Below are positions 24,458-27,169 of a stretch of DNA of 64,000 nucleotides, in pieces. Source of the stretch: Lactobacillus johnsonii ATCC 33200 (lineage in GTDB: Bacteria; Bacillota; Bacilli; Lactobacillales; Lactobacillaceae). The translations under genes were made by a program, and so were the position numbers. The DNA lies in assembly GCF_000159355.1 (NCBI RefSeq), contig NZ_GG670122.1, positions 62,001 to 126,000 of the forward strand, given 5' to 3'. Numbering within the stretch: position 1 is the stretch's first letter; each line of letters begins with the position of its first letter. The notes beneath the pieces were generated by a model that saw only the letters and a program-made list of their open reading frames with translations, was not told where the DNA came from and made no database searches.

Positions 24458-24709
24458 ATGAAAATATCTATTCATCATATTGTAACTCAAAAGGTCGGTA
24501 ATTCAGCTGGCTTTTCACTACCTGCTTCTTTTAAAGTAGAGGTAGGAACTGAGTATGCAATTCATCAGAAAGCTGATGGAAGTTTGATCTTAATACCGAA
24601 AATTTCTAATCCTTATACCTCCGATGCTAAATTTGAAGATGTACCAGGACCAGAAAGGGAAGCTTGGGAAAATATGGCTATGGAGGAATTACGTCATGCC
24701 GAAGAATAA
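24458..24709 (+). CDS. MazE-like antitoxin (AbrB/SpoVT domain)
   Basis: An 83-residue protein. Residues 1-50 form a swapped-hairpin AbrB/MazE DNA-binding domain (VTQKVGNSAGFSLP), and the acidic tail (about 52-83, EREAWENMAMEELRHAEE) is the part that normally threads into the toxin. It starts after TGAGGT. It overlaps the toxin gene by 14 bp, which is the usual translational coupling of toxin-antitoxin pairs. Confidence 0.85.
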   Translation: MKISIHHIVTQKVGNSAGFSLPASFKVEVGTEYAIHQKADGSLILIPKISNPYTSDAKFEDVPGPEREAWENMAMEELRHAEE

Positions 24710-25037
24710 ATTTAAACAGGGAGATATTGTGTGGGCGGATTTTTCACCGTCAGTTGGACAAGAAATGAAGGGAAAACATCCTGCGGTAGTAGTATCGTCT
24801 AATTCATATAATGAAAAGACTAATTACCTAATGGTTTGTCCAATTACATCCCACGGCAACCATTTCCCTACCTACTTGGACTTATTCGGATATCATATTC
24901 ATGGTCGTGTAAATGCAGCTCAAATTCAAACTTTTTCTAGAATGAGATTGCTAGATGAAAAGCCAGCAGATCATCTTAGGCCAGAAGATATGCTTAAAGT
25001 AATGGAATTACTTATTTTTGCTCTGCAACTTGATTAG
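24696..25037 (+). CDS. MazF/PemK-family mRNA endonuclease toxin
   Basis: A 113-residue MazF-like ribonuclease. The N-terminal motif is QGDIVWADFSPSVGQEMKGKHPAVVVSS, with the conserved Arg/Lys-rich PemK core altered to KGKHPAVVV, followed by CPITS and LDLFGYHIHGRVNAAQIQTF. ATG 24696 is chosen because TGGAGGAA lies 8 bp upstream inside the antitoxin gene. An upstream in-frame start would overlap much more. It is likely neutralised by the preceding antitoxin and autoregulated by the complex. Confidence 0.87.
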   Translation: MPKNKFKQGDIVWADFSPSVGQEMKGKHPAVVVSSNSYNEKTNYLMVCPITSHGNHFPTYLDLFGYHIHGRVNAAQIQTFSRMRLLDEKPADHLRPEDMLKVMELLIFALQLD

Positions 25038-25122: not shown

Positions 25123-25608
25123 GTGAAAATTAAACAAGAAGAAATAACTAAAAAAATTGAAGAACAAGATTATCTTCAAGATCTTGAGACAATTAAATAT
25201 AGCGAAATAACCAAGACAAAATTAAAAAATATTGCAACTAAAATGATTAATGAAGCTGTGCAGGCTTTTAAACATGACTCCCTCATTCAAACGCAGCTGG
25301 CCATTAGTGGAAGAAGACCAATGACTTTTGCCCTTGAAAGTAATATCATTAATCTTCCATTTGCTAACTACAAAAAAATTAGTAATTTTTGTAATAATGA
25401 AGATGAATATGAAGTAAATATCTATTTTGAAACTATTTCAGAGTATGTAAATGTTTCTCACTTCCGAATCGATATTCTGGGGTCAAGTGATGAAATTGTA
25501 GCTGATCCAGAAAAGTATAGTGCATTACTAGTAAAAGCAATTGAAGAAAAAATTGAAGTAATTCGCAACTATCAAAAACCCGAAACAAAAACTAAGAAAA
25601 CAAAATAA
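25123..25608 (+). CDS. Hypothetical cytosolic protein
   Basis: 161 residues, Lys/Glu/Ile-rich, no membrane segment or signal peptide. The N-terminal part is predicted helical (KQEEITKKIEEQDYLQDLE), the middle mixed, and the tail Lys/Thr-rich. I recognise no family. It follows MazF by 85 bp and has GAATTTTTATC rather than a strong ribosome site before its GTG start. It shares a bidirectional terminator with the converging nrdF-like gene. Confidence 0.6.
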   Translation: MKIKQEEITKKIEEQDYLQDLETIKYSEITKTKLKNIATKMINEAVQAFKHDSLIQTQLAISGRRPMTFALESNIINLPFANYKKISNFCNNEDEYEVNIYFETISEYVNVSHFRIDILGSSDEIVADPEKYSALLVKAIEEKIEVIRNYQKPETKTKKTK

Positions 25609-25640
25609 GGAGCTAGCCTTTATGCTAACTCCTTATTTTG
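25601..25640. terminator. Bidirectional terminator
   Basis: A 17-bp stem with one mismatch (25601-25617 with 25624-25640) overlapping the 3' ends of both converging genes. Confidence 0.85.
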
Positions 25641-26574
25641 TTATTTCACGCATTTTTAGGATGGGATGGGCATTAGTGTAAAAGAAAAAATCCTCAATCA
25701 TTGCACTTTCCATCAGACCAGTGGTCAAAATTGGATCTAAAGTCTCAACATTTTCTGGATATTTTGGTTCTTGTCCTAAATTCATAAGAGCTTTATTTAA
25801 TGTGTAATGAATATAATGCTCTACCTTATTTTCAAGATCAGTATTCTGATACAAGAGTTTAATATGGCTAAGCTCATTGTCATATAAATTATCACATAGA
25901 TCATATACCCAATCATGCACTTTGTTCTGTTCTTTCTTAGAAAGTTTGAAAAAATCTCGCCGAAACTTAATTCCGGTATAAATGCCATTTAAAGTTGTAA
26001 TTCTAAGGGCATATTTAATCAATTCTGCCGTTCTTGGTAATTTATGTTGTCCGAATAAATATAACGGGCCAAAAAATGATGAATGATAAAGGCCAGTTGA
26101 TAGAAAAACGTGAGCAGCTTTTTTCTGAATAGCATTTCCTGATTGATATACTGTATTTAGAAGTTTCATCTTTTTTTGTAGATAAGGATTTTGGTTTGCC
26201 CATTCATAGGCATCTTCTTGTTTTTTAGAATCAGAAAATTCAGCTAATACATAGCTATAGGCCTTATTATTAATGGATTCTAGATATTGAAGTGCATTAT
26301 ATACAGCAACTTCTTCAGAATTTTCAGCATCTTTTTTTATTTCGGATAGAGCTACTTTCATTTGGAGGGTAGAAGAGAGCGTTAAAGAGCCAAAACTGTG
26401 CAAAATCACAGTTTGTTCATTTCTAGGGAGATGAAGAAACTCTTTCTGATCTTTATAAATTGGAACACGACAAGGTTCGTAAACAATATCATTTAATCTT
26501 GCCCAAGCAGAACGATCTACTTGCTCTTCTACAGTGTTCCAGTTGTTTGCTTTATAATAAGGTTTTTTATTCAT
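25633..26574 (-). CDS. NrdF-like ribonucleotide reductase beta subunit lacking the metal ligands
   Basis: 313 residues, about the size of class Ib R2 (NrdF), which normally houses a di-iron/di-manganese site and tyrosyl radical for dNTP synthesis. Family landmarks persist: GSLTLSSTLQ for GLTLLDTEQ, KAYS for KSYS, NPYLQKKM, GPLYLFGQ, and LNKALMNLG. Compared with the B. subtilis NrdF as I remember it, the ligand Asp66 is Ser68, His101 is Asn102, Glu164 is Ser159, Glu198 is Thr193 and His201 is Asn196. Glu97 is either Leu98, or kept as Glu99 with a one-residue helix deletion. The radical Tyr is retained (Y106). The ORF is intact, and its start overlaps nrdI by 8 bp. No nrdE is present in the window. 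The pattern exceeds class Ie enzymes, which keep the histidines. It is either a non-catalytic paralogue or a relic. Confidence 0.8.
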   Translation of the reverse strand: MNKKPYYKANNWNTVEEQVDRSAWARLNDIVYEPCRVPIYKDQKEFLHLPRNEQTVILHSFGSLTLSSTLQMKVALSEIKKDAENSEEVAVYNALQYLESINNKAYSYVLAEFSDSKKQEDAYEWANQNPYLQKKMKLLNTVYQSGNAIQKKAAHVFLSTGLYHSSFFGPLYLFGQHKLPRTAELIKYALRITTLNGIYTGIKFRRDFFKLSKKEQNKVHDWVYDLCDNLYDNELSHIKLLYQNTDLENKVEHYIHYTLNKALMNLGQEPKYPENVETLDPILTTGLMESAMIEDFFFYTNAHPILKMREITK

Positions 26575-27026
26575 TTTTCTGCCTGAAGTCACTTAAGAAG
26601 CTAATATTGCTAAGAGCTGGATTTTGAATTGATAAATCTTTTTGTGCACGTTTTTCTTTTTTTCGAGCTTCCATAACAATTTGACGAACATTTTTGACGT
26701 CAGTCGAATTACCACTAAGTTCTAGTAAGTAAAGAATAAGAACATGTAATGTAACCGAGATCTTTTTGCTGTTTGACCAAAAAGATCGTTAAAGTTATGA
26801 TTACCACATCCAATTAATCCTAAAAGATTTTTTTATTATCTTTATATGTTAAAAAATCAACAACGGAATCCATCATAAAGTCTTGATATGAAGGTAAAAT
26901 CAAAATGTATTTATCATTCATTTGATATTGAGGATTAGCATCCTCAATTCGATGTGCATCAAGCCCCGTTTTATCTATGAATTGTTGCGTTTGTCCTGTA
27001 ATTGTATAAAAAGCTATTTTTACCAT
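26567..27026 (-). pseudogene. nrdI: nrdI, flavodoxin-like activator of NrdF, two frameshifts
   Basis: NrdI is the flavoprotein that supplies oxidant for NrdF metallocofactor assembly. The intact N-terminal part (MVKIAFYTITGQTQQF, flavodoxin start) ends early at 26820. Restoring one A in the run at about 26825-26832 continues into NLLGLIGCGNHNFNDLFGQTAK. Restoring one A in the run near 26778-26784 continues into LELSGNSTDVKNVRQIV and a C-terminus ending at 26567. The repaired product is about 153 residues and overlaps the nrdF-like start as ATGAATAA. Both lesions are single-base A-run losses. Confidence 0.85.
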
Positions 27027-27169
27027 AGTTTTGCCTATCGTTATATACCAAAACTATCTTCTACATATTCAATTGTCGCGATTTTTAAAGTTAAAGTCAA
27101 ATCAAAAAAAAGTTTTAAAAACGCTACTAAGTACCGTATACTTAACTTAAAGAAAATGGAGGGTCCCTT

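Follow-up and report, generated by a model that had tools for sequence, protein, structure and literature searches.

A gene pair encoding the flavodoxin-like protein NrdI and an R2-type protein that has lost most of the ligands of its di-metal site occupies a fixed place in Lactobacillus, and the R2-type gene is under purifying selection. R2 proteins are metal-dependent radical generators for ribonucleotide reductase (RNR), and the metal-free class Ie proteins still serve an R1 subunit. The pair was analysed in a window of 64,000 nucleotides from Lactobacillus johnsonii ATCC 33200 (contig NZ_GG670122.1), to which all coordinates refer; we call the R2-type gene nrdF-star and its product NrdF-star. 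The reading that we prefer, at a probability of roughly 45%, is that NrdF-star descends from a class Ib NrdF whose R1 partner, NrdE, was lost, and that it has become an R1-independent redox protein that is fed by NrdI and probably metal-free. If this is true, a class I radical generator has been released from RNR to serve a different reaction. A conserved R2 without ligands or R1 but with NrdI and its tyrosine would then mean that an NrdI-R2 pair is useful alone.

The nrdF-star frame (25633..26574, minus strand) is unbroken from an ATG at 26574 to a stop codon ending at 25633, as stated in an earlier, sequence-only reading of the window. It spans 313 codons, or 319 if an alternative GTG start six codons upstream is used. 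The R2/NrdF fold claimed in the same reading was supported by a match to Pfam PF00268 (166.3 bits, cut-off 33.6), which identifies the product as an R2 protein, and by its alignment to the solved class Ib NrdF of S. sanguinis (4n83). An AlphaFold2 model of the product (pLDDT 84, pTM 0.83) also had 4n83 as its best structural match (TM 0.85/0.94), and it reached query-normalised TM scores of 0.84-0.85 against class Ie structures. A second nrdF was sought in the same genome and none was found, nrdF-star being the only PF00268 match. NCBIfam model NF007183 labels the product 'ribonucleotide-diphosphate reductase subunit beta' (385.6 bits, cut-off 320), which is likely a misannotation; a divergent family member (L089) scores under that cut-off. 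A Lactobacillus protein bearing this name is by itself no proof of a class I RNR.

The former metal site was read against 4n83 and 14 Lactobacillaceae class Ib NrdF sequences. All 14 have the ligand set D/E/H/E/E/H in the alignment, and the window protein has S/E/N/S/T/N. The five substitutions noted earlier from the sequence (Asp to Ser68, His to Asn102, Glu to Ser159, Glu to Thr193 and His to Asn196) were borne out against 4n83. The radical tyrosine was likewise correctly read as retained: it is Tyr106 in the window protein (codon 26257..26259, minus strand; this and the following codon positions were derived from the ORF coordinates) and is present in 26/26 aligned homologues. One detail had to be corrected, as the one-residue deletion placed in the helix of the sixth ligand, a Glu, is absent. 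Residues 5-107 align without a gap to residues 3-105 of 4n83, and Glu99 (codon 26278..26280, minus strand) therefore falls on the canonical ligand Glu. It is the sole ligand retained in all 26 aligned proteins.

The altered site is a property of the whole family. The position of the Asp ligand is Ser68 (codon 26371..26373, minus strand) in 26/26 aligned homologues, and the first His position (102) is Asn or Ala in all of them. At the second His position (196) 17 proteins have Asn, eight have Ser and one has Gly; at the second Glu position (159) 14 have Glu, ten have Ser and two have Asn; and at the third Glu position (193) 25 have Thr and one has Ser. Four of the six ligands are thus lost throughout the alignment, and five in the window protein. 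The alignment omits three of the 29 homologues found, namely two near-copies (L003 and L010) and one sequence split by a stop (L021), whose readable ligand sites are altered as well. Relatives with a normal ligand set were sought, as were alignments that move the substituted residues onto intact ligands; none of the former occurred among the 26 aligned proteins, and no alignment of the latter kind was produced.

Several of the replacements became fixed. Relative to class Ib, D68S, A103N, F163Y, Y164H and I189A are found in all 26 aligned proteins and E193T in 25 of them. Positions 102 and 159 covary with no exceptions, as Ala/Glu (n = 14), Asn/Ser (n = 10) or Asn/Asn (n = 2). Fixed replacements together with this coupling suggest more than chance in the changes at the site. 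In E. coli R2, the radical tyrosine lies in a hydrophobic pocket of F208, F212 and I234, which correspond to L183, F187 and I209 of the M. florum protein, according to PMC7615503. M. florum and NrdF-star numbering differ by a constant offset of 20, so that the pocket residues map to NrdF-star positions 163, 167 and 189. Since positions 163 and 189 are now Tyr and Ala, the insulating pocket has been rebuilt with a second tyrosine and an alanine. The adjacent residues Tyr163-His164 (codons 26083..26088, minus strand), which are Phe-Tyr in class Ib, are present in all 26 proteins.

Glu99 and His164, both invariant in the alignment, could bind one metal ion together with the Glu159 present in 14/26 proteins. 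NrdF-star might then be a rebuilt mononuclear metal enzyme that uses an oxidant derived from NrdI. We consider this unlikely, because position 159 is Ser or Asn in the other 12 proteins, the window protein among them, which leaves two candidate ligands, and because none of the 26 retains the canonical Asp or either His.

Homologues of nrdF-star were found in 29 of 75 Lactobacillus genomes, each representing one species, with the frame open in 28 and split in one (G072). The 26 aligned sequences form a single clade on a long stem (support 100/100), which includes neither the class Ib rows nor the sole class Ie row in the tree; very long branches, chiefly L031 (class Ie) and F_L022, make the inner placements less certain. 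The full set of six ligands is present in 31/31 canonical rows. This count leaves aside L120 and L142, of which L120 reads as canonical in a separate alignment of 14 rows. A profile of the family gave 472-540 bits for the 15 intact members drawn and 447 bits for the split G072 copy. Outside the genus, no score exceeded 328.5 bits among the matches listed, in overlapping draws of 397 Lactobacillaceae and 395 Lactobacillales genomes. Literature searches, in a library with few subscription papers, returned no title or abstract opening that describes the family, a scope in which a remark in body text could be missed.

The unit lies between two conserved genes. One edge of its site is the flanking gene C0 (27170..27796, plus strand; LVIS_2131 family), and the other is C4 (25123..25608, plus strand), which has no Pfam or NCBIfam match. 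In 20 loci with wider flanks, counting the window, nrdF-star and C0 occur together in all 20, an O-antigen-ligase-like gene (C3) follows beyond C0 in 19, and C4 is on the opposite side in 19. Extra ORFs separate nrdF-star from C4 in three loci. The nrdI-nrdF-star unit is absent from 46/75 genomes of the genus (33/60 near-complete ones) and is therefore dispensable. In all 33 near-complete genomes without nrdF-star, both flanking genes were found on one contig, with a median separation of 178 bp (range 46-4018 bp). A marker tree built from these two genes, covering 59 genomes and leaving out the nrdF-star genomes G058 and G067, requires five changes in presence, and the unit occurs in each of the two deep halves of Lactobacillus. 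This fits an old gain followed by several losses. One such loss is caught in progress in G005, where a fragment of nrdI and the final ~30 codons of nrdF-star survive.

The dN/dS ratio of nrdF-star was 0.032-0.156 in five of nine pairs; of the other four, three had saturated dS and one had no amino-acid change. Flanking genes had ratios in a similar or slightly lower range. In the closest pair (the window gene and L074), nrdF-star had a higher ratio than the flanking genes, 0.156 on 13 changes, and the gene may be slightly relaxed in the window lineage. The sequence-only reading had offered a relic of recent loss as one cause of the altered site, and signs that a disused class Ib subunit is decaying could be seen in the absence of NrdE from 73/75 genomes of the genus, in the broken nrdI of the window (see below), in the split gene of G072 and in the remnant of G005. 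The family, though, shows neither the relaxed selection nor the broken frames of pseudogenes: the same changed residues are shared across one clade, dN/dS is 0.03-0.16, the altered site is genus-wide and the gene persists at a fixed position. Decay is thus largely refuted at the family level, where we hold it to be highly improbable, but it may apply to individual strains, that of the window among them.

In 27 of the 29 genomes with nrdF-star, that of the window strain included, NrdE is absent. A search of the L. johnsonii genome with PF02867 and TIGR02505 found no nrdE, whereas in other genomes of the genus these models detect NrdE or NrdJ. The two genomes with NrdE (G026 and G028) also have NrdJ, and on its NrdE contig each has an additional NrdF together with an nrdI distinct from that of the unit (L031, L032 and L042 in G028; L033 and L043 in G026). 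The second NrdF that was read, in G028 (L031), is of the VPK class Ie type, and the gene order is nrdF, nrdI, nrdE. Class Ie stretches of the QSK type can lack nrdE as well, but PMC11846895 reports an nrdE elsewhere in virtually all of those genomes. In this respect nrdF-star is different, with no nrdE elsewhere in 27/29 genomes.

The protein itself is changed where it would meet R1. Its R1-binding tail is altered, the canonical tail tyrosine (column 304) is absent in 26/26 aligned proteins, and a tyrosine earlier in the tail (Tyr299) is new in 26/26. The first tryptophan of the transfer path, W32 (M. florum W52), is Tyr in 11/26. With both the R1-binding tail and the tail tyrosine lost, and this tryptophan replaced in those 11 proteins, the output of NrdF-star would be something other than ribonucleotide reduction, and a non-RNR role is likely. 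The retained radical tyrosine and NrdI, which recall class Ie, might instead point to a metal-free R2 working with an unrecognised R1, or with an R1 carried on other elements. We regard this as extremely unlikely given the lost tail and the failure of models that detect NrdE and NrdJ elsewhere in the genus to find either in the L. johnsonii genome. Nor was anything near nrdF-star found on plasmids or phages (no match of at least 60% identity, the best among the matches listed being 36.6%) or on viral contigs.

Other reductases do occur in these genomes. The class II enzyme NrdJ is present in 13/29 genomes with nrdF-star, and the class III enzyme NrdD in 25/29, versus 15/46 genomes without nrdF-star (Fisher p = 5e-6, uncorrected for kinship). 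This association might suggest that NrdF-star and NrdI are accessory to NrdD, for example by protecting or re-activating it in air. On the tree, however, only four supported independent contrasts exist (sign test, median p = 1, range 0.5-1), too few for the association to reach significance. In addition, G038 and G043 (99% complete) contain nrdF-star and nrdI with no NrdE, NrdD or NrdJ found, the near-complete G036 has nrdF-star and NrdJ but no NrdD, and nrdD of L. johnsonii is on a different contig from nrdF-star. A role as accessory to NrdD is therefore very unlikely in our view. The broader proposal of the sequence-only reading, a non-catalytic protein that assists or regulates another reductase, is weakened by the absence of NrdE from 27/29 genomes, by the two near-complete genomes in which no RNR was found and by the non-significant link to NrdD. 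Among 60 near-complete Lactobacillus genomes, 13 had no match to NrdE, NrdD or NrdJ; these bacteria apparently have no RNR and presumably depend on deoxynucleoside salvage.

NrdI is the constant partner. The nrdI gene (26571..27029, minus strand) is upstream of nrdF-star and its end overlaps the nrdF-star start. It holds this upstream place in all 29 loci, with a full-length open frame in 26, of which one is fused in frame to nrdF-star and one has a differing end. The channel from NrdI in B. cereus NrdF is formed by Ser162, Tyr166, Lys263 and Asn267, as given in PMC9462851. Anchoring B. cereus Glu161 and Glu195 at NrdF-star 159 and 193 places these residues at 160, 164, 261 and 265. The M. florum channel residues named in PMC7615503 include Q91 and Y163. 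In NrdF-star, Lys261 is kept in 25/26 proteins, Asn265 in 24/26, and Gln71 and Tyr143 (M. florum Q91 and Y163) in 26/26. Position 160 is Thr or Ser in 17/26 and Met or Ile in 9/26, and the channel tyrosine (B. cereus Tyr166) has become His164 in 26/26. Judged from these residues, the side of NrdF-star that faces NrdI is largely kept and the side that faces R1 is not.

One explanation for this pattern is that NrdF-star has become a non-catalytic scaffold, which binds NrdI and holds or tunes it, so that the flavodoxin serves another protein by carrying electrons or reducing O2. Consistent with this, channel residues were retained while metal ligands were lost, and mean column identity is higher in NrdI (78%, 18 full-length rows) than in NrdF-star (62%, 26 rows). 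A scaffold should not need the invariant Tyr106 or the newly fixed Tyr163, His164, Asn103 and Ala189, however, and nrdF-star is open in the three of 29 genomes where nrdI is broken. We therefore consider a scaffold rather unlikely.

The window strain is one of those three. Its nrdI is open for the first 68 codons only, with frame shifts in two A-rich stretches, and a His replaces an Arg that is invariant in the 18 full-length NrdI sequences. In the closest relatives (L003 and L004) nrdI is intact. The nrdI-nrdF-star unit may be failing in the window strain, or an assembly error may lie behind the broken gene, though the flanking genes are intact. In G010, nrdI (L014) breaks after codon 68, seemingly in the same A run, which is perhaps a slippage hot spot. 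The in-frame fusion, of 465 aa, is found in L. taiwanensis DSM 21401 (L010, 1048-2442; L076) and may be real or an assembly slip. A model of the fused protein had a pTM of 0.64 and did not predict docking with confidence.

NrdI itself has changed alongside NrdF-star. Its loop on the flavin side is Q-D-F-M-M-D-S in 18/18 sequences, while the solved NrdI proteins shown for comparison have Gly-containing loops. Since the loop has been rebuilt, flavin chemistry may differ. Across rows L074-L092 the stretch P-[SA]-Y-Q-D-F-M-M-D-S stands in place of the Gly-containing loop, and most of these NrdI proteins also share a conserved C-terminal I-S-F-L-S.

Compared with known R2 systems, NrdF-star shares its fold, the radical tyrosine, one Glu ligand, the NrdI neighbour and most NrdI-channel residues with class Ib NrdF. 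It differs from class Ib in the loss of at least four of six ligands, in a unit without nrdE and in the loss of the R1-binding tail; the fixed Tyr163, His164, Asn103 and Ala189 are new. Class Ie R2 proteins are metal-free, carry a DOPA radical and come in VPK and QSK types, according to PMC11846895 and PMC7615503. NrdF-star resembles them in its class Ib-like fold, replaced ligands, kept tyrosine and NrdI partner. In class Ie, however, three Glu are replaced by V/P/K or Q/S/K with the Asp and both His still in place (as seen in L031), and an R1 is present, whereas NrdF-star has lost the Asp and both His and retains the first Glu. Its Glu positions read Glu, then Ser, Glu or Asn, then Thr or Ser, which is neither VPK nor QSK. 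The Asp that forms a hydrogen bond with DOPA in class Ie and the partner Lys (M. florum D88 and K213) are Ser68 and Thr193 in NrdF-star, so that the chemistry must differ from that of class Ie. The earlier proposal of a third type, outside classes Ib and Ie, is thus upheld, with no normal ligand set in 26 relatives. A function outside ribonucleotide reduction is known for the R2 fold of R2lox, as described in PMC6399176 and PMC10867098. R2lox is a Mn/Fe metalloprotein, though, whereas NrdF-star is without most metal ligands, including an R2lox-type Mn/Fe set, and is paired with NrdI.

Class Ie provides the precedent for NrdI-dependent oxidation of a tyrosine without metal, and we propose the following course for NrdF-star. 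After an old class Ib NrdF had lost NrdE and been rebuilt as an R1-independent redox protein, NrdI would still dock on it as in class Ib, and the reduced flavin of NrdI would make superoxide or peroxide from O2. This oxidant would travel the old channel, past Lys261, Asn265, Gln71, Tyr143 and His164, to the former metal pocket of Ser68, Glu99, Asn103, Tyr106, Tyr163, Ala189 and Thr193. With no di-metal centre there, it would oxidise Tyr106 and perhaps Tyr163. A cofactor could result, in the form of a catechol, a quinone or a radical, or the protein could act as an oxidant sink; no R1 would take up a radical. An engineered E. coli R2, F208Y, reportedly hydroxylates its own tyrosine to DOPA. NrdF-star position 163 corresponds to F208 in E. 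coli R2, and 164 to the channel tyrosine. The more specific form of this proposal, in which a flavodoxin NrdI and an R2 fold lacking the di-metal site form a tyrosine or catechol cofactor at Tyr106/Tyr163 beside His164, free of R1, is tentative and somewhat doubtful. The end use would most likely be the handling or sensing of O2-derived species in these fermenters.

Regulatory signals around the unit were also considered. No NrdR boxes were found upstream of nrdI in 20 loci, and a related pattern found none at three nrdD or nrdJ loci either, so that their absence at nrdI carries no weight. A promoter scan returned no more sites at the locus than in shuffled sequence. A terminator-like stem-loop of 19 pairs (25599..25642) lies at the shared 3' ends of nrdF-star and the convergent gene. 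In the region 24458-25037, an ORF of 83 aa overlaps a PemK/MazF-like toxin gene (PF02452). This toxin-like gene (cluster C20) is present in three of the 20 loci, the window among them.
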